From positions 1 to 38,460 of the forward strand of contig JAFLBG010000037.1 in NCBI GenBank assembly GCA_017303975.1: 38,460 nucleotides of DNA, given 5' to 3'. Within the stretch, counting starts at the first letter, position 1; each line of letters starts with the position of its first letter. The notes beneath the pieces were generated by a model that did not search any database, was not told the origin of the DNA, and saw only the letters and a list, made by a program, of their open reading frames with translations. Of this stretch, positions 1,381-18,463 are shown in pieces. Position numbers and translations under genes: made by a program. Source of the stretch: Bacteroidota bacterium. GTDB taxonomy: Bacteria > Bacteroidota > Bacteroidia > JAFLBG01.

Positions 1381-2550
1381 TTATTTAACAATCGTAATTT
1401 GACCTGTTTGTTGAATATTGCTTTGAGTAGAGGATAATTCGTACACATACACCCCCATAGGCAGCGCTATGCCTTGTATATCATCTCCGGTCCATGTAAA
1501 TGTGTTAGATGAAATAGTAGTTTGATAAACCACAACGCCAGTTCGGCCGTTTCTGATTCGTAATTGGACATCAAATCCGTTAAATCTATTGACAGGCACT
1601 TCCCAGTATTTTTGTTGTAATGGATAAAGAACATAGTTGCAATCTTGCTTATCTACTGTTTGGGAAACTACTTCGCTTTTGCAATTGCGGCTATCGCGAA
1701 TACTAATTTTATATACACCATTCGCAAGATTTTCGAATCTACCAGACGAATAATAGTTCTTGCCGTTATCGATAGAATATTCGAAGGGTGCAAATGCATT
1801 TTGCGATTCTTGTGAAAGTGTTATAATTCCATTTTGCTGAGATTGGCAACTACTTATTACATCGATAACCGGTGTAATTTGAACTCCATCGCACACGTTT
1901 TTTTCGTTATTGCTATTTTCATTTGCAACAGGAACGTTAGTTTTGTTAGACTCCGCACTATTACTTTGCGCACTACTTGTTTGACTGTAATTGTTAGAGT
2001 TGTTAGGTTTAGAGGGTTCATCCTTTCTAGTTACGGGAGCCTGTTCATCCAATTTAGCCTCCTCCTTTTTTTCAGGCGAGGGTTCTATTGTTTTACTACT
2101 TGAAGAAATTTTCTTCTCGGACACAATTGTGTTTTGTGTTTCAGGACTTAGCTCATGTGAAGTGGTTACAGAACTGTCTTGTGTAGCAATTTCAGTTTGT
2201 GAATTTTTAATTGCTGGCTGTACGATCGAATTAGGCTCTGTTTGTCGATTACTGTTTTTATATACCAAAACAAAAGTTGTAAAAAGTGCTACGATAGCTG
2301 CAATGGAAAGAATTCGTCTGCCATTTAGTTTTGATGGCTTGGTATTGTTTGAATGAATTTGTGCTAGTTGTTGTTTAATATTAACGAGTGCGTTATCTAC
2401 TATAATGTTATTTGCGGCTTGATGCGCATCAAACTCTGCCTTAAAATCAGCATCGCTGACGATTCTTTTTTCGACCTCCAATTTCTCTTGAGGTGTTAGG
2501 TCGTTATCGAGATAACGCTCTATTAAATCGTATGTAGTATTATCTATCAT
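1381..2550 (-). CDS. membrane anti-sigma factor with SprB-like repeat and type B-like T9SS sorting domain
   Basis: This 389-aa protein combines unlike parts. Residues 1-65 (IERYLDNDLTPQEKLEVEKR...) look like the cytoplasmic anti-sigma domain common in Bacteroidota ECF pairs, without the HxxxCxxC zinc motif. One membrane helix covers about 80-97. Residues 98-220 are a Ser/Asn/Glu-rich periplasmic linker. Residues 228-300 match a SprB repeat (APFEYSIDNGKNYYSS, FENLANGVYKISIRD, RNC). Residues 305-389 match the gliding-motility C-terminal (CHU_C, type B) pattern: YWEVP, RNGRTGVVVY, FTWTGDD, LPMGVYVYEL, GQITIVK. It overlaps the sigma gene by 4 bases (ATGA), so the two are co-translated partners. 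Unusually, there is no cleavable signal peptide, so the sorting domain should stay tethered to the inner membrane. Family assignments come from reading the sequence; the sensing role is inference. Confidence 0.75.
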   Translation of the reverse strand: MIDNTTYDLIERYLDNDLTPQEKLEVEKRIVSDADFKAEFDAHQAANNIIVDNALVNIKQQLAQIHSNNTKPSKLNGRRILSIAAIVALFTTFVLVYKNSNRQTEPNSIVQPAIKNSQTEIATQDSSVTTSHELSPETQNTIVSEKKISSSSKTIEPSPEKKEEAKLDEQAPVTRKDEPSKPNNSNNYSQTSSAQSNSAESNKTNVPVANENSNNEKNVCDGVQITPVIDVISSCQSQQNGIITLSQESQNAFAPFEYSIDNGKNYYSSGRFENLANGVYKISIRDSRNCKSEVVSQTVDKQDCNYVLYPLQQKYWEVPVNRFNGFDVQLRIRNGRTGVVVYQTTISSNTFTWTGDDIQGIALPMGVYVYELSSTQSNIQQTGQITIVK

Positions 2551-3161: not shown

Positions 3162-3821
3162 TTATCTGATCACGGTTATATGCGTAGTTTGATTTGTTTG
3201 CTTATTTATTGCGATATAAAAGCCCATTGGGACAATTGTACCTGTTCCATCTTTTCCGTCCCAAATTCCGCTACCCACCAAACGTCTAACCAATCTTCCA
3301 TCGCGATTAAAAATATCAATCATTTCTTCGACACCACCTGTAAAGCAGGAGAGTAGTGTTACATCATCTTTACCATCGTCATTAGGAGTAATTACAGAAA
3401 TAGCAGGAGGAACACTTAAACTATCATTACAATCGACAAGAATGCTTTCACATATTATTCCACAAACAAAGCCAAAAGTATCTGTAGCTATTAAACACAC
3501 GCTATACGTGGCAACAGCGGGGAATTCATAAGAGAAATTAGTAGAATAATATTTTGTTGTATCGTTTGATATATTCCAGTATGCATCTTGATAGTTAGAT
3601 GTATTTTCAAAATTAGCTACCCTACAATTTAAACTATAAGAAAAGGTAGGAGTGCATGTTGATGAAATAAGAGCCGACTTATACGAAGCCGCAGAATCGC
3701 TCTCTTCCAAAAAGGCATAACCAGAATTGCTGTTGCCGGCAAATGGAAGCGGCAAAGCAACCAGCGTAGCCATTTTAGCTATCAGCATAATTGTAATTAT
3801 TATTTTTGCACTTGTTTTCAT
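3162..3821 (-). CDS. PKD-like protein with T9SS type B (CHU_C) sorting domain
   Basis: I place the start at the ATG at 3821, giving 219 aa; the longer open frame begins with TTG at 3842. The N-terminus (MKTSAKIIITIMLIAKM...) is a signal peptide. The middle contains a PKD-like stretch (AYWNISNDT ... YEFPAVATYSVCLIATD) with several cysteines. The C-terminal 80 residues carry a classic type B sorting signal: ISVITPNDDGKDD, IDIFNRDGRLVRRL, GIWDGKDGTG, VPMGFYIA. The protein is therefore predicted to cross the outer membrane by T9SS. It is small for the family, which usually consists of large adhesins. Its position between a PorP/SprF-like gene and the sigma gene mirrors the known SprF-SprB pairing. 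Confidence 0.85.
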   Translation of the reverse strand: MKTSAKIIITIMLIAKMATLVALPLPFAGNSNSGYAFLEESDSAASYKSALISSTCTPTFSYSLNCRVANFENTSNYQDAYWNISNDTTKYYSTNFSYEFPAVATYSVCLIATDTFGFVCGIICESILVDCNDSLSVPPAISVITPNDDGKDDVTLLSCFTGGVEEMIDIFNRDGRLVRRLVGSGIWDGKDGTGTIVPMGFYIAINKQTNQTTHITVIR

Positions 3822-3877
3822 TTTACAATTTTCAAATATCAAATAAACTATTTTCCTTTATTCGAGTCCTTTTTAAA

Positions 3878-3910
3878 GTACTACATAACTACTAAGCAAA
3901 AGTAACCCCC
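3878..3910 (-). promoter_or_regulatory. ECF-like promoter motif copy 1, before the type B cargo and sigma operon
   Basis: Read on the minus strand this holds GGGGTTACTTTT, 12 unrelated bases, then TGTAGTAC. The same blocks with the same spacing occur before the PorP/SprF-like gene (4902-4933). Counting GTTAC as the upstream element leaves 16 bases before TGTA, a spacing normal for ECF promoters. It lies 57 bases upstream of the ATG at 3821. That the adjacent sigma factor reads it is inference. Confidence 0.55.
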
Positions 3911-3928: not shown

Positions 3929-4882
3929 TCAAAAAGTAGGACAATCAGCAGCACCCGACTTTGGTGCAGCCGCTGAATCTCCCTTACCAAATAAATAACG
4001 CACCATAATTTCGTATGCCTGTGTGTTTGTTCTTGTATTTGATAGTTGAGGCATAAAATATGCGAAATCTATCGACAATCTGTTTGTTTTACCGTTTTGA
4101 GGAATTGGAATGTTCTGAATGCCGGCAAATCCATAAAATCCTTCTCGCAAGTCGTAACCACCACCAAAAGAAACCATTTTTTTAATCAGCAATAAGAAAG
4201 ATGCCCCAATATTTACTTTTTGAAGGTAAGGATTGATTAGGGCTGGGGTAAATTTAGCGAATACAGAAGGTGTGATGCTAAATGATTCGTTTACAATAAA
4301 ATCGTGTTCGCCTAGTAAATAAAAGTGCCTATTTAGATGTATCACTTGATCTACCGGTCGGGCTTTAGTATTTGTGTATTGATTTATTGACAATCCAATC
4401 CGAGTTGTTGACGAATACAGCATTACACCGCCATTTCCGTCTATAGTAGAAGCTGATGCTCCGGCTGCATAATCTGTTGGCTTAACGCTAAAATTATACA
4501 ACCCAAACGACAGCCCTGCTGAAAAAAACCATGTGTCATTTATTTTTTGGTGTCGAGAGAATGAGAGATGCGCTCTGTTTCTACTTAAAACAGGACCTTC
4601 TCTATCGCTATAAAAATCTATACCGATAGAATTAAACCCATTATTCTTTTTCATTATTCGAAAAAAAGCGGAAAAAGCAGAAGTGAATACGCCCCCAAAA
4701 CTATTGCTATTTCTCCGGCTAAAGGCATACAACTCGACATCGGAACGAATACAACCTTTTGCAGGATTGATTTGAGGATTGTAGAAATATTGACCAAAAT
4801 GTACAGGTAGCTCAGAAACAATCGGCTGAGAATACAACCGACCAAAAATAAAAATTACAAGTAGCGTAAAAAATATTCGCAT
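3929..4882 (-). CDS. PorP/SprF family outer-membrane protein
   Basis: The start chosen is the ATG at 4882, because it opens directly into a signal peptide (MRIFFTLLVIFIFGRLYSQ); the longer frame starts at a TTG at 4942. The mature protein, about 298 aa, begins with HFGQYFYNPQINPAKGC, matching the FxNPAxxG-type opening of PorP/SprF proteins, and continues with alternating beta-strands ending in YEIMVRYLFG, as in an outer-membrane barrel. SprF is needed for SprB export in Flavobacterium johnsoniae, and paralogues usually sit beside a type B cargo gene, as here. The C-terminal tail after the last strand (AAAPKSGAADCPTF) is an odd extension with one cysteine. Confidence 0.88.
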   Translation of the reverse strand: MRIFFTLLVIFIFGRLYSQPIVSELPVHFGQYFYNPQINPAKGCIRSDVELYAFSRRNSNSFGGVFTSAFSAFFRIMKKNNGFNSIGIDFYSDREGPVLSRNRAHLSFSRHQKINDTWFFSAGLSFGLYNFSVKPTDYAAGASASTIDGNGGVMLYSSTTRIGLSINQYTNTKARPVDQVIHLNRHFYLLGEHDFIVNESFSITPSVFAKFTPALINPYLQKVNIGASFLLLIKKMVSFGGGYDLREGFYGFAGIQNIPIPQNGKTNRLSIDFAYFMPQLSNTRTNTQAYEIMVRYLFGKGDSAAAPKSGAADCPTF

Positions 4883-4901
4883 TCTTGGGTTGCTAGCTAT
4901 C

Positions 4902-4933
4902 GTATTACACTTGTAATTTAGAAAAGTAACCCC
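4902..4933 (-). promoter_or_regulatory. ECF-like promoter motif copy 2, before the PorP/SprF-like gene
   Basis: On the minus strand: GGGGTTACTTTT, 12 bases, TGTAATAC. It differs from copy 1 (3878-3910) in one base of the second block. It ends about 19 bases upstream of the ATG at 4882, which would give a short 5' leader and also supports that start over the TTG at 4942. Confidence 0.55.
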
Positions 4934-4945
4934 TTTTAACAAAAT

Positions 4946-8624: not shown

Positions 8625-10355
8625 ATGAAATATTCAATAACACACATCATACTATTTTTTGCAGTAAACACTTTCTTAGCTCAGACTCCCAATTGGCATT
8701 GGGCCAAAAGCGCCTCTGGTAATTTTACGGAAGAAATATTGACCACGGTTACAGATAACCAAGGTAATGTAATTGCTGCCGGTTTTTTTGAAGATGCAAG
8801 TATTACCTTCGGAACGACTACCCTAACAAATTCTCACACTAGCCACTGCGATATTTTTATTGTAAAGTATGACACAAACGGAACAGTTTTATGGGCAAAA
8901 AGCTTTGGAGGAAATGCTTGGGACGATGTACATTCAATAACTACAGATGCAGCAAACAACATCATAGTAGTGGGAGGATTTAACAGTTCAACTATTGGAC
9001 TCGGTGCTACAACGCTATCCAATTCTGATGTGCCCTCTCATGACCTTTTCATTGCAAAATACGATACCAATGGAAATCTGTTATGGGCAAAAAGCTTTGG
9101 AGCACAAGATGATGACTATGGCACATCCGCTGCAATTGACGGAATGAATAACATATTTGTGTCCGGAACTTTCGAAAACACACAACTAGTATTCGGGGCA
9201 AACACAACAATATATAATACAAATAGTAACGGCAGTGCTGATATTTTTATTGCAAAATTTGACTCTGCCGGAAACATTATATGGGCGCAAGCTATTGGAG
9301 GTAGCTCAAATGATGAAGTAATGTCAATAACATGTGATTTAAATGGCAATGTATATATTGCGGGGCAATATGCGGGAGCAAGTATTTCAACAGGATCTAT
9401 AACAACAACAAACACTAGCTATACGGGCATAGGATACTCAGGTTTTATAGCCAAATACAGCACAAATGGAACCCCACTTTGGGCAGAAAGTGTTATAGGA
9501 GGTGGTAATTTATTTGGAAGCGGATTAAACAACATTAAAGCAGATACATCCGGAAATATTTTTGTTACAGGAGGATATTATAATGCATCAATAACTATAG
9601 GCGGACTAACCATTAGTAATACAGATCTTTCAGGAAATACATCTGATGCATTCATTGCTAAATACAGCCCAACTGGCAATATAAAATGGATAAAAAACCT
9701 TACAGGATCGGACAATGAAGGAATTTCATCTATAGCAGTAACAACAAAAGGAGAAGTTATTGTTTTAGGATTTTTTATGGGTGCAAGTTATACAGACGGT
9801 ACTACCTCGTTAAACAATACAGATGCCACAGGTATAAGTACAGATTTATTTATCGAAAAGTTTGACACCAATAGTAGTCCCCTTTGGTTAATTAGCGCTG
9901 GCGGTAATTATTTTGATTATCCTTATTCAATATCTACAGATCTAACAGGAAATATTTATGCTGCTGGGAGTTTTGCTAGTCCTTCTATACTTTTCGGAAC
10001 AACTCAACTTTACAACTCCAATAGTACTGCCTTTACAAATCCAGATTTATTTATAGTTAAATTGAGCAATAGTAATTATATAGCATCTGTTCCTGCCATC
10101 AGTAAAAACAACTATAGTGTTTATCCCAATCCAGCAACCGAAAGCTTGTGCTTAAAAACAAATGAAGTTCTAAATGGAGAGGTAACAATAGAAATTATAA
10201 ACAATAACGGACAGACGGTAAAAAGAGAACAAACAACCAATTTAGATACATATTCCATTAATATTAGCAACTTGATAAATGGCGTTTACTCCATAAAAGC
10301 AACTAATGGAAATAAAGTATTGAACCAAAAATTTGTAAAACTGAACAACAACTAA
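8625..10355 (+). CDS. SBBP-repeat-like beta-propeller protein with T9SS type A sorting domain
   Basis: This 576-aa protein starts with a signal peptide (MKYSITHIILFFAVNTFLAQ). The body consists of about eight repeats of roughly 55-65 residues with the pattern DxxGNxxxxGxF ... FIAKYDTNGNxLWAKSFGG, which resembles SBBP-type propeller repeats. The C-terminus (YSVYPNPATESLCLK ... INNNGQTVKRE ... LINGVYSIKATNGNKVLNQKFVKL) is a standard type A T9SS sorting signal. The product is thus predicted to be exported across the outer membrane and anchored or released. Ligand and role are unknown. An ECF-like motif upstream is shared with the sigma gene downstream. A general "T9SS type A sorting domain protein" label is safe. 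Confidence 0.88.
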   Translation: MKYSITHIILFFAVNTFLAQTPNWHWAKSASGNFTEEILTTVTDNQGNVIAAGFFEDASITFGTTTLTNSHTSHCDIFIVKYDTNGTVLWAKSFGGNAWDDVHSITTDAANNIIVVGGFNSSTIGLGATTLSNSDVPSHDLFIAKYDTNGNLLWAKSFGAQDDDYGTSAAIDGMNNIFVSGTFENTQLVFGANTTIYNTNSNGSADIFIAKFDSAGNIIWAQAIGGSSNDEVMSITCDLNGNVYIAGQYAGASISTGSITTTNTSYTGIGYSGFIAKYSTNGTPLWAESVIGGGNLFGSGLNNIKADTSGNIFVTGGYYNASITIGGLTISNTDLSGNTSDAFIAKYSPTGNIKWIKNLTGSDNEGISSIAVTTKGEVIVLGFFMGASYTDGTTSLNNTDATGISTDLFIEKFDTNSSPLWLISAGGNYFDYPYSISTDLTGNIYAAGSFASPSILFGTTQLYNSNSTAFTNPDLFIVKLSNSNYIASVPAISKNNYSVYPNPATESLCLKTNEVLNGEVTIEIINNNGQTVKREQTTNLDTYSINISNLINGVYSIKATNGNKVLNQKFVKLNNN

Positions 10356-10606: not shown

Positions 10607-11206
10607 ATGTTCTTTAAAAAAGAAGTAAATACAGAACAAGAGCTGATAAAAAGGTGTATAGCCGGGTCAGAAAAGCACTGCAAAGAGCTTTTTGAGAGTT
10701 ATTATGGCAAGCTACTAAACTGCTGTTTACGCTATTCCACAAACGAAGACGAAGCGAAGGATATGCTACAAGAAGGCTTTATACGAATATTTCAAAACTT
10801 ATCGAAATTCTCCTTTGACGGATCTTTTGAGGGCTGGCTTAAGCGAATTGTAGTAAACACGGCTATTAATTATAATAAGAAGTATGTTTACAATTCAAAA
10901 ATAAATTACTATGACAATGACGATATTGGATATTTGGAAGGACAAAGTGTTGCTGTAATTATTGAAGAAAATGCCTTGGATAAATTTTATGCACAAGATA
11001 TACTAAGTGCAATTCAAAGCTTATCTCCAATATATAGAATGGTATTTAATATGGCAGCCATAGAAGGATATTCACATAAAGAAATTGCAGAAGAGTTAAG
11101 TATTACAGAAAGCACATCGAGGTCTAACTTAGCAAAGGCAAAAATTAAATTAATTGGGTTACTAGAAAAAAAAAATGAAAAAAAATTAGTTCATGAAGCT
11201 GTTTAA
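10607..11206 (+). CDS. ECF (RpoE-type) RNA polymerase sigma factor, Dma-partner type
   Basis: This 199-aa ECF factor has region 2 at about 25-95 (LFESYYGKLLNCCLRYSTNEDEAKDMLQEGFIRIFQNL, FEGWLKRIVVNTAINYNKK) and region 4 at about 130-185 (LSPIYRMVFNMAAIEGYSHKEIAEELSITESTSRSNLAKAK). This sequence type is common in Bacteroidota and usually precedes a membrane anti-sigma gene. It overlaps the next gene by 14 bases, which indicates translational coupling. An ECF-like motif lies upstream (10475-10526) and a matching copy precedes the propeller gene, which suggests a small regulon in cis. Assignment to the ECF21 group, the partner group of Bacteroides Dma proteins, is my inference from resemblance. 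Confidence 0.92.
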   Translation: MFFKKEVNTEQELIKRCIAGSEKHCKELFESYYGKLLNCCLRYSTNEDEAKDMLQEGFIRIFQNLSKFSFDGSFEGWLKRIVVNTAINYNKKYVYNSKINYYDNDDIGYLEGQSVAVIIEENALDKFYAQDILSAIQSLSPIYRMVFNMAAIEGYSHKEIAEELSITESTSRSNLAKAKIKLIGLLEKKNEKKLVHEAV

Positions 11207-12782
11207 CGAGAATAGTTTTGACAAATTTTTGAAGGATGGATTAAGTAATCTTCCTGAACATAAACCTAGTTCTTCTGATTGGGACAAGATGAGAGGCGCG
11301 CTAATCAATAAGAAAATATTTTTATTTAACCGAAGCTACAAATCAAAAACAGTAAAACTGTTTTTTTATAGCATATCAATAATTTGCACTGTAGCTGTAC
11401 TTATATATTTAAATACAGCCGAAAAGATCTCGACAATTATAAAATTAGATGGCGTAGAGATTAGTTCAGAAAAATCAGTTCTACCGAATGTCCGCAATTC
11501 ATCAACTAATGAACCTTTAAGAAAAGACATTACATACAACCAAAAACAAGAAGATAAACGAATTTATACTGAGAATGAAAGTAGTATAATCTCTTCTACA
11601 ATTAATAAATCAAACAAAGAGAACAGTGCAATAGAAAATAGAATTTACAACAATCGAAACACAACAGAGCCGGTAATGAATAAGGAGTATTTTGAATACA
11701 CAAAAGAAACAACATTTACCAATAAAAAAACACAACAAATGGCTCAAAAAACAGATAAACTAACCAATAAACATAACTATACTAACAATACTAAAACTAT
11801 ACAAAATAAAATAAGTTACAATGCCAATAAATTAAAATCGAGCTATTTAAACAAAAGCAGCAGAGAAAATCAAGAGAATTATACGCAAAAAACTAACAAT
11901 TCTTACTCAGCCGATAATGCTTTATATGCATTTGCAAAACGAGAATTTTCACAAATAAATTTCTTATTGGCAGACAGTTCCATTTTATCCGATTCTATAA
12001 TACCAATTTTCCCTCTTGAAATACCGCCTCATCAAAAAAAACATAAATGTGAGTTTAGTATTGGCGTTGTTTTAGGTGGAGGTAACACTTTTTTAACAAA
12101 CAAACTACAAGCCCCCCGTGTAATAGAAAGTAAACAATCCAACATTCCATATTATAACATGGGACTAATAATAAATTCAGATATTGGTTCTAGACTTTCG
12201 ATTTCTTCAGGTATTTTATTACAACAACTAAATCCATTAAAAGAAAAAATAGTAAAAACAGAAATAGATAGAACTACCTATTTTTCCACATCTACAATGG
12301 ACATAACTTACTTTGAACAAAAAATGAACATCTCGAAGAATATATTAATAATATATATTCCGGTAAATCTAAAATTCAATTACTATACAAATAAAAAATA
12401 CAGTTTCTTTATCGGAGCCTTTTCTCTTATAGATATTGGAGGAACTAACAACAGACCTAAAGACCCTACACTAGAGGAGTTTCTTATATCACCCAATCAA
12501 ACTATGGTTGATAACTGGGTTACAACGAGCAGCCAAGACTGGGAATCTAGAACCTACCAAGCCAACCTACCGCTTCTTGGTATTAATACCGGCTTAAAAC
12601 ATCAGTTAAAAAACAAAAAAATTCACCTTGGTTATGAGCTTACGTATTTCATAAATGGATTTAACAACTATAGATTTTCTATTTCCGAGTCTTATACAAG
12701 CTCCGATGCAAGTTTAAACTCTGTAAATAAATTTAGCTCTTTAGGATTAAACGTATCATTACTATACAAACTAGGGAAATAA
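11193..12782 (+). CDS. trans-envelope anti-sigma protein with C-terminal outer-membrane barrel (Dma-like)
   Basis: This 529-aa protein has a short cytoplasmic part (1-55, with FLKDGLSNLPEHKPSSSDWDKM), one membrane helix (about 56-73), a roughly 210-residue linker rich in Asn, Lys, Thr and Ser, and from about 284 a porin-like beta-barrel (FSIGVVLGGGNTF, MGLIINSDIGSRLSISSGILLQ, VNLKFNYY, ending NVSLLYKLGK with a terminal aromatic-containing strand). The chain should therefore span inner membrane, periplasm and outer membrane. This layout matches dual membrane-spanning anti-sigma factors described in Bacteroides thetaiotaomicron, which pair with ECF21 sigma factors and affect vesicle formation. 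It overlaps its sigma gene by 14 bases. The linker's biased composition differs from neighbours. Confidence 0.8.
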   Translation: MKLFNENSFDKFLKDGLSNLPEHKPSSSDWDKMRGALINKKIFLFNRSYKSKTVKLFFYSISIICTVAVLIYLNTAEKISTIIKLDGVEISSEKSVLPNVRNSSTNEPLRKDITYNQKQEDKRIYTENESSIISSTINKSNKENSAIENRIYNNRNTTEPVMNKEYFEYTKETTFTNKKTQQMAQKTDKLTNKHNYTNNTKTIQNKISYNANKLKSSYLNKSSRENQENYTQKTNNSYSADNALYAFAKREFSQINFLLADSSILSDSIIPIFPLEIPPHQKKHKCEFSIGVVLGGGNTFLTNKLQAPRVIESKQSNIPYYNMGLIINSDIGSRLSISSGILLQQLNPLKEKIVKTEIDRTTYFSTSTMDITYFEQKMNISKNILIIYIPVNLKFNYYTNKKYSFFIGAFSLIDIGGTNNRPKDPTLEEFLISPNQTMVDNWVTTSSQDWESRTYQANLPLLGINTGLKHQLKNKKIHLGYELTYFINGFNNYRFSISESYTSSDASLNSVNKFSSLGLNVSLLYKLGK

Positions 12783-16606: not shown

Positions 16607-18463
16607 TTAGTTACCAGTCTTTACAAACTTCTTTTGCACTAAATTTAGTCCGTTGCTTATGTTCAGCAAATAGATTCCATTTGGCAATGTTGAAGTTGGA
16701 ATTTCAAAGTTTGGTGTTTCTGAAGTTAATTGTAGCATCTTTTGTCCGTTAAGATTATATACCTCAGCATTCACTATACCTTCCATTTCACCAGCAATAG
16801 CTACATTCACATTTGTAACAACCGGGTTTGGATAAATAGTTGCATCTAATGCAGTAGCGTCTGTGGCAGTAATATCATTTTTATATGCATTACTATTATT
16901 CTCGTCCATTTGATCAAGCGGAGACAAGGCGCTTCCAGATAAATTATACCTGCACATAATACTTGCATTATCACCATTTACATTTATAATTGGAGAAGCC
17001 CCAGTAACTTGCAACTTATACTTGCCTAAGTTAGCATAGGCTGTTATTATAAGACTGTTCTTTAAAGGCATTAATTTACAATCTGTTAGAGATGCGTATT
17101 GCCCAGACGTTTTAGCAATTCTATTCTTCCACTTTAGAACAAAAGTATTACCAGTTGGCTTATATTTTGCCATGAACAAATCCGCCCCCATTGGATATGC
17201 CATATAAACATTCCCTTTTGAATCTAACGAAGAACTAAAACTCCAATAGCCCCAATCAGTAGATGGCAAAGATTTAGTCTCTTTGTAAGCAGATTGAAAA
17301 GCACCGTATTTAGAGTATTTAGCAATATATGGAACAATGCTATCTCCAATTGCTTTAAACTTTGCAGTTGAATTAAACTGTATTTCTTGTCCCGTATGAA
17401 GTATCCCTGTAAAAATTACTGAACCATCTAAATTTGCATATGCTTTGGGTTCTAGGAAATAAACTACATCCGTGTTTACTAAAGTATGCCAAGCATAAGC
17501 CATGGTTGCATGATACTTTATAATAATTGGATATCTTTTAGAATCCGTAAGTGTTGAGTTTTGAATTTTTTTAATTGGCGAAAAGCCGTCTAAGTCAATG
17601 CCATCCGTATTTCCGGCTCCTTTTACATATACTCCGCTTAAAATAATATTCTTGCTTTTATCGCAAGAAACATTTGTAATATTTATATCATTGCCAACAG
17701 CAGCAACAACAATATGGTTAACATACTTTAAATTTATATCATACTTAACCAACAACAAATCGTTTTCACCAACTACAGCTAATTTAACTCCTGCTGTAGG
17801 ATCCAAATCATATGTTTGGTATTGATCAGACCAATTTTGAAAAACGGCCACAAGAGAACCATTTACATCTGTTGTAAGTGCATGAACTGCAAGATTTGAA
17901 CTAGTTCCCACATTCTTAGGTTTAATTAATGCTGGTTGTGCAGTTGTAGCAACACCTAATTCATTTATTCTATAAATAAAAACATCCATGCTAATATTTT
18001 CATCGGTAGACGCATTTACAGATGTTACAACAGCACCATTGTTATAGCTTATTTTCCCGGCAAATCCACCAACCACATAAACCCCTTTTGTCTTACCAAT
18101 AGGAGTTATTTTCAACTTATCTGAAAAAGTATGATAATATGAATGCGACTTGAATTCGTTTGCCCATAAATATTTTCCAGTAGTTGCATCATAGCAAGAA
18201 ATTACATTCCCCTTTCTATTTGTCTTAGCAGCAGATTGATCGTAATCGATACTTTCATCCCAAGAATTTGAAGTTCTATAAATTCTGTTTGAGAGTGTAT
18301 CCAATACAGATTCACTTTCAACCGACTCTTCATATACTGTATGAAATCCGGCATGACCAAAATTCGCATTCCATGCGACAGTCGATTGAGATAGAACATT
18401 AGAAATGTTTCCTACGGCAAATAGTGCTACAATAGCCGCAATTGTTTTTGTTTTTGCTTTCAT
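16607..18463 (-). CDS. large secreted protein with T9SS type A sorting domain
   Basis: This 618-aa protein has a signal peptide (MKAKTKTIAAIVALFAVGNISNVLSQ) and a type A T9SS signal at the end (ATIYPNPVVTNVNVAIAG ... VYNLNGQKMLQL ... LPNGIYLLNISNGLNLVQKKFVKTGN). The body has propeller-like segments such as DVFIYRINELG, LLVKYDINLKYVNHIV and KGNVYMAYPMGADLFMAKY, similar in style to the 576-aa propeller protein but more diverged. It is predicted to reach the cell surface or medium. Function unknown. It is monocistronic, ends in its own terminator and is divergent from the helical-repeat gene. Confidence 0.87.
   Translation of the reverse strand: MKAKTKTIAAIVALFAVGNISNVLSQSTVAWNANFGHAGFHTVYEESVESESVLDTLSNRIYRTSNSWDESIDYDQSAAKTNRKGNVISCYDATTGKYLWANEFKSHSYYHTFSDKLKITPIGKTKGVYVVGGFAGKISYNNGAVVTSVNASTDENISMDVFIYRINELGVATTAQPALIKPKNVGTSSNLAVHALTTDVNGSLVAVFQNWSDQYQTYDLDPTAGVKLAVVGENDLLLVKYDINLKYVNHIVVAAVGNDINITNVSCDKSKNIILSGVYVKGAGNTDGIDLDGFSPIKKIQNSTLTDSKRYPIIIKYHATMAYAWHTLVNTDVVYFLEPKAYANLDGSVIFTGILHTGQEIQFNSTAKFKAIGDSIVPYIAKYSKYGAFQSAYKETKSLPSTDWGYWSFSSSLDSKGNVYMAYPMGADLFMAKYKPTGNTFVLKWKNRIAKTSGQYASLTDCKLMPLKNSLIITAYANLGKYKLQVTGASPIINVNGDNASIMCRYNLSGSALSPLDQMDENNSNAYKNDITATDATALDATIYPNPVVTNVNVAIAGEMEGIVNAEVYNLNGQKMLQLTSETPNFEIPTSTLPNGIYLLNISNGLNLVQKKFVKTGN

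Follow-up and report, generated by a model that had tools for sequence, protein, structure and literature searches.

The window analysed here is a stretch of 38,460 nucleotides from a Bacteroidota genome (assembly GCA_017303975.1, contig JAFLBG010000037.1). Near its beginning, four genes follow one another on the minus strand in the order porP, cargo, sigma and anti-sigma (Table 1). The reading frames of sigma and anti-sigma share 4 bp. The sigma factor exceeds the cut-offs of TIGR02937 (53.2 bits) and Sigma70_r2 (31.1 bits), while Sigma70_r4_2, at 19.8 bits, stays below its own. The locus has the arrangement of an ECF pair, in which a protein with sigma regions 2 and 4 is followed by an overlapping downstream gene with an anti-sigma region and one transmembrane helix, and the anti-sigma is predicted to inhibit the sigma factor that it overlaps. 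The small cargo protein just passes the CHU_C cut-off of 27, scores 26.5 bits with TIGR04131 (cut-off 35), and its single-sequence fold is of low confidence (mean pLDDT 32.6). The ORF caller extends cargo to a TTG at 3842 and porP to a TTG at 4942. The ATG codons at 3821 and 4882 are likelier starts, the latter because the extension (4882-4942) runs through a promoter element.

Table 1. Features of the porP-cargo-sigma-anti-sigma locus, with the evidence for each
Feature	Position	Strand	Basis
Anti-sigma factor with T9SS type B CTD-like tail, 389 aa	1381..2550	minus	ORF; 12-member family; CHU_C in 12 of 12
Type B CTD-like domain without TPNxDG, residues 305-389	1384..1638	minus	CHU_C matches, motif comparison, tree
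SprB-like Ig-type domain, residues 222-304	1639..1887	minus	Same-genome and secreted-protein matches, model, Pfam SprB match of one homologue
Disordered periplasmic linker, residues 102-221, ~120 aa	1888..2247	minus	pLDDT <50 for 102-216
Single transmembrane helix, residues ~80-99	2254..2313	minus	Hydropathy, positive-inside charges, helix in model
Cytoplasmic anti-sigma-type N-terminal region, residues 1-79	2314..2550	minus	AlphaFold2 helices; same region in anti-sigmas of surveyed sigma loci
ECF sigma factor, 191 aa	2547..3122	minus	TIGR02937, Sigma70_r2
Type B CTD cargo protein, small	3162..3821	minus	CHU_C 27.3 bits (cut-off 27)
ECF-type promoter element GGTTACTTTT-N12-TGTA before cargo	3882..3907	minus	Motif search
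PorP/SprF-family outer-membrane shuttle	3929..4882	minus	Above cut-off with PF11751 (99.7 bits) and TIGR03519 (94.3 bits)
ECF-type promoter element GGTTACTTTT-N12-TGTA before porP	4906..4931	minus	Motif search

The N-terminal region of the anti-sigma is the conserved anti-sigma-type region of the proteins encoded beside this sigma family. Its profile scores are weak (Pfam zf-HC2, 13.5 bits against a cut-off of 22.2; NCBIfam "antisigma", 17.7 bits), and it contains no cysteine, so that the HxxxCxxC zinc finger of the zf-HC2/ZAS type is absent. The single transmembrane helix follows this cytoplasmic domain, an order that differs from that of an N-terminal signal peptide for release to the periplasm, and the charges that flank it obey the positive-inside rule; the tail should therefore be periplasmic. 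An AlphaFold2 model, run on the 12-member alignment described below, is helical over residues 4-100, including the transmembrane helix, disordered over 102-216, and confident over ~222-389 (block-mean pLDDT 81-95), where two β-sandwich domains are formed. Homologues with a clear boundary have linkers of ~89-116 aa.

The relationship of the tail to secretion signals emerges from several comparisons. The window protein matches CHU_C over residues 326-387 with 20.5 bits (E = 5.4e-4), below the gathering score of 27, and has no match to TIGR04131 of NCBIfam; taken alone, this score is a lead only. CHU_C nevertheless matches all 12 family members at E<=0.1, the best at E = 2.2e-8, and Pfam SprB is matched by one of them (2.2e-6). 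The SprB-like part matches T9SS-type proteins of the window's own genome (37% identity, E = 3.4e-7), and together with the CTD-like part it matches the last ~150-165 aa of secreted proteins encoded in other genomes, a length in keeping with the 150-235 aa that type B signals are reported to have (PMC12618676). A PDB fold search returned generic Ig-like structures at low TM-scores, including a surface protein of Aureispira, GhpA, and the T9SS-related PorZ and PorU; this agrees with the other comparisons but is unspecific. A preliminary description of the sequence had read the chain as an anti-sigma factor overlapping an ECF gene and anchored in the inner membrane, with a long linker, a SprB-like repeat and a type B-like sorting domain. 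Profiles, model and homologues confirm that these features are real, correctly placed and conserved. That description had named the lack of a significant type B match for residues 305-389 as evidence against its reading; the family shows otherwise, CHU_C matching all 12 members.

Searches at genus, family and order level matched only the window's own genome, and a class-wide search (395 genomes) added one full-length relative, in genome G306, with 25% identity over residues 10-388 and the same four genes at its locus. A scan of a genome collection with the sigma alignment gave 13 loci, 11 of which carry a tail-bearing anti-sigma, one being the G306 locus again. The family comprises 12 members, 11 of them from public records and nearly all from MAGs; the same fusion does recur beside ECF genes, as the preliminary description had proposed to check. 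When the phylum was searched with the alignment of whole proteins, many matches appeared, mostly to SprB repeats or short N-terminal stretches, and none was a new full-length member; a scan of viral contigs with the anti-sigma gave no match. The prevalence of the cassette is a lower bound, few candidates having been scored per genome.

The contiguous order porP-cargo-sigma-anti-sigma is found in the window and at loci L160, L163, L166, L167 and L168, the five non-window genomes being Flavobacteriales-type MAGs. In a seventh genome (L162) porP and cargo adjoin the sigma/anti-sigma pair on the opposite strand. Contig ends interrupt the cassettes of L161, L164 and L165, and another contig end of the L161 genome carries porP and the start of cargo with the expected promoter elements, while L169 and L170 show sigma and a tail-bearing anti-sigma only, without an adjacent porP. 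Pfam matches support the identity of the cassette genes. Cargo and porP are neighbours, as in cognate pairs of type B CTD and PorP, in the window and at six other loci. The cassette PorPs of seven genomes form a clade with support of 100/100, to which none of the 12 other PorPs encoded in the window's own genome belongs; the cassette sigmas are likewise one clade (SH-aLRT 99), and the tails form their own clade in the CTD tree. The cassette alignments comprise 12 sequences, which limits the support that they can lend.

A class survey of 120 sigma loci served for comparison, 117 of them as controls for PorP. The PorP profile matched the window and G306 loci only, and none of the 117 controls (Fisher p = 4e-10). 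Most of the downstream anti-sigmas surveyed have a different periplasmic part, such as a trypsin-like or a TPR domain. Beyond the cassette, CTD-type tails occur in the survey only in three PKD-type anti-sigmas of one family (L089:1580-2989, L093:1857-3278 and L148:2074-3468); two of these (L089 and L093) were scored, at 36.5 and 34.7 bits, above the CHU_C cut-off. No PorP lies near the three within the flanks fetched. A FlgD-like tail at L153 was set aside, as it is not a CTD. PKD-type tails group with canonical CTDs, and their sigmas too are separate from the cassette clade, so that sorting-domain tails were probably joined to anti-sigmas at least twice, once in the cassette type and once in the PKD type. 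The CTD tree is compatible both with descent of the cassette tails from the CTDs of the cassette's own cargo and with another source.

The upstream regions of porP share the element GGTTACTTTT-N12-TGTA, with putative -35 (GGTTAC) and -10 (TGTA) blocks, which stands at constant spacing before porP and before cargo, at 14 cassette sites in all. It precedes both genes in the window, at L160, L166, L167 and L168 and in the L161 genome; at L163 it precedes cargo, the region upstream of porP lying off the contig. At L170 it stands before sigma, as it does at L162 with one extra spacer base. The exact pattern has 20 matches in 12 whole genomes against one for a reversed control; with one mismatch allowed, the window has two matches against 0.07 expected, and the non-cassette loci of the survey have none. 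Seven sites were found in the window's own genome. Two are those of the cassette porP and cargo, one (C10) precedes a type B cargo gene followed by a PorP gene, one (C8) another type B cargo gene and one (C2) a gene for a type A T9SS protein, whereas C30 has no plausible gene downstream. At the seventh site (C16) a 200-aa protein resembling an outer-membrane barrel (L266:3161-3763) starts 73 bases after the element start; it has no NCBIfam family match and ends in CPKFNF, with a C-terminal cysteine like the tail of the window PorP. Position and co-occurrence suggest that the cassette sigma reads this element. With element sites in front of T9SS genes, this sigma probably drives the expression of T9SS cargo and of shuttles.

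These linkages bear on a rival view of the tail, as an Ig-like periplasmic domain that was recycled to sense a condition with no relation to T9SS, such as envelope stress, peptidoglycan or redox state. The varied periplasmic domains of the sister anti-sigmas fit such a reading, as do the loss of motif A (see below) and the generic Ig sandwich with its generic PDB matches. On this view, however, it would be a coincidence that divergent genomes link the tail with a type B cargo and with shuttles of one dedicated clade, and that promoter elements stand ahead of T9SS cargo genes; we regard it as quite improbable.

Dedicated PorP/SprF shuttles bind type B CTDs (PMC9143113, PMC12618676), and in Flavobacterium johnsoniae this recognition is specific (PMC12618676). 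The comparison with working type B signals centres on what the tails keep and what they have lost. Eight of the nine cassette cargos and about 28 of the 30 other CTDs of the window's own genome have the motif TPNxDG where the CTD begins; none of the 12 tails has it. The one exceptional cargo, at L166, reads PNQVG instead; the motif of the L165 cargo was confirmed by eye. At the motif-D position, MG is found in nine of the 12 tails and in seven of the nine cargos, against none of the 30 other own-genome CTDs. We infer that TPNxDG and the LPMGxY segment correspond to two of the published motifs, TPNxDG being motif A. In F. johnsoniae, mutating any one of five motifs in type B signals is enough to block secretion (PMC12618676). 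Since TPNxDG is missing from all 12, the tails are not ordinary export signals, and the comparison suggests a mimic, recognisable yet not exportable, that is, a tethered pseudo-substrate. On the shuttle side, the Cys-x-Cys tail of SprF is absent from the cassette PorPs, only the window PorP having one cysteine near its end.

It is very improbable that the tail still works as an export signal, with the anti-sigma being cut in the periplasm and either its tail or all of its periplasmic portion then exported, much as FlgM is. Such a mechanism would explain why secreted T9SS proteins end in the same two-domain block and why the PKD-type anti-sigmas retain a full CTD above the Pfam cut-off. The membrane anchor nevertheless bars export of the intact protein, and motif A, as we equate it, is missing from every tail although the loss of any one motif stopped secretion in F. 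johnsoniae.

The reading that we favour, and hold to be fairly probable, is a sigma/anti-sigma circuit dedicated to T9SS, in which the tethered pseudo-substrate adjusts the supply of cargo and shuttle. It builds on the anatomy of the anti-sigma, the conservation of the cassette, the co-inherited shuttle clade, the shared promoter elements and the loss of the motif, all computed here; the docking itself, the proteolysis and the sense in which the circuit responds are predicted steps. The ECF sigma would transcribe the genes of the PorP/SprF shuttle, the type B cargo and a few other T9SS surface proteins. The anti-sigma would keep it at the inner membrane, with the flexible tether and the CTD mimic crossing the periplasm. 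Having retained a recognition-like C-terminal part and lost TPNxDG, the mimic could dock at the shuttle or the translocon without an exit. Competition between mimic and cargo, or a shift in shuttle occupancy, would then alter the exposure of the anti-sigma or the strain on it, its proteolysis would probably change, and sigma activity would come to fit cargo and shuttle output to surface loading. The response could have either sign. Docking might strain or expose the anti-sigma, so that idle export capacity leads to more cargo being made, or it might protect the anti-sigma, so that cargo loading displaces the tail and amplifies expression; the protection of FoxR by FoxA (PMC11637429) is a model for the latter. 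The data favour neither sign, and the partner may be either the shuttle or the general translocon.

A related version describes a T9SS checkpoint, in which the anti-sigma is permanently tethered as a pseudo-substrate of its dedicated PorP/SprF shuttle and couples sigma to cargo loading or translocon availability, CTD tails having been acquired at least twice (cassette and PKD types). We see the case for it as evenly balanced. Against the favoured circuit stand the CHU_C score of the window tail, below the curated cut-off, the L169 and L170 tails without an adjacent porP, and the three PKD-type anti-sigmas, which have a fuller CTD and no porP nearby. Type B cargo is also known to meet its shuttle after entry into the SprA translocon, so that the tether would need to reach into the translocon. 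The preliminary description had proposed a sensor of secretion status and named tails in genomes without T9SS as evidence against it. No such case was found, as SprA is present in all 15 tail-bearing genomes, but the comparison is uninformative because SprA is present in 191 of 198 genomes of the class. The sensor idea overall is upheld in part, by the features on which it was built and by the porP and cargo neighbours and promoters that the preliminary description had missed, while the sensing itself stays at the level of the predicted steps above.

The nearest layout is that of TonB-dependent signalling (FecA/FecR/FecI, FoxA/FoxR/FoxI), which likewise combines an outer-membrane barrel, an inner-membrane anti-sigma with a periplasmic C-terminal domain and an ECF sigma, and in which the barrel gene belongs to the sigma regulon. 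By contrast, the cassette barrel is a PorP/SprF protein and not a TonB receptor, a Pfam scan of the anti-sigma found neither a FecR nor an STN domain, and the tail is a relative of secretion signals. The likeness raises the possibility of cell-surface signalling, with PorP as the transducer that relays an extracellular event sensed by its anchored cargo (adhesion or a ligand) to the tail, export status being irrelevant. As in the TonB-dependent layout (PMC11637429), the genes for barrel, anti-sigma and sigma lie together and have a promoter directed at themselves, and cargo at the surface stays bound to PorP (PMC9143113). Such a relay nonetheless seems unlikely to us, given the lack of FecR and STN, the want of a known ligand, and a tail that resembles cargo, a likeness that suggests competition with cargo more readily than relay from a receptor.

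FlgM, which acts on sigma28 at the flagellar checkpoint, is a soluble, exported anti-sigma. The two systems are alike in that an anti-sigma with a secretion-signal-like feature controls genes for the cargo of that machine; they differ in that the cassette protein is tethered to the membrane and a conserved motif is missing from its signal, and no homology is claimed. ECF control of T9SS components has already been reported (PMC4800418, PMC7712824, PMC9723704). In Porphyromonas gingivalis the ECF sigma SigP controls T9SS genes and the CTD protein PorA affects the PorXY-SigP pathway (PMC7712824, PMC4800418), but SigP acts with a two-component system on machine components, and no CTD-bearing anti-sigma has been described there. 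SM6 promoters of Flavobacterium psychrophilum are also of ECF type and precede T9SS component genes and a sigma/anti-sigma pair (PMC9723704); their -10 box has CGT, unlike the cassette element, whose targets are cargo and shuttle. The SprB-SprF and PG1035-PorP pairs share the placement of a type B CTD gene beside its PorP/SprF-like shuttle (PMC9143113, PMC12618676), without an adjoining sigma/anti-sigma or a membrane-anchored CTD protein having been described. No anti-sigma with CHU_C, SprB repeats or PorP/SprF was found in the open-licence literature, in agreement with the earlier statement that no system of this kind was known.

How the production of T9SS surface proteins is matched to export capacity in Bacteroidota is poorly known. 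As a compact candidate, the cassette opens feedback from T9SS status to transcription to direct test: its partners can be named, its promoter is predicted and its regulon is small. If the proposal is true, it would be a T9SS counterpart of flagellar secretion-coupled sigma control and of TonB surface signalling, and the cell may gauge its own secretion by means of a brake that bears the tag.

Elsewhere in the window, a second ECF sigma gene (10607-11206, plus strand) overlaps a gene for a 529-aa protein, the pair spanning 10607-12782. This protein has no Pfam match; its anti-sigma-like N-terminus is followed by a transmembrane helix and a long linker rich in polar residues, and its C-terminal half resembles a β-barrel. 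Two type A T9SS proteins are encoded at 8625-10355 (plus strand) and 16607-18463 (minus strand), with Por_Secre_tail scores of 49.8 and 44.2 bits. The own genome as a whole, with 83 TIGR04131 matches and 13 PorP/SprF matches, is richer in type B substrates and in shuttles than F. johnsoniae, for which 12 such substrates and 10 PorP-like proteins have been reported (PMC12618676, PMC9143113).
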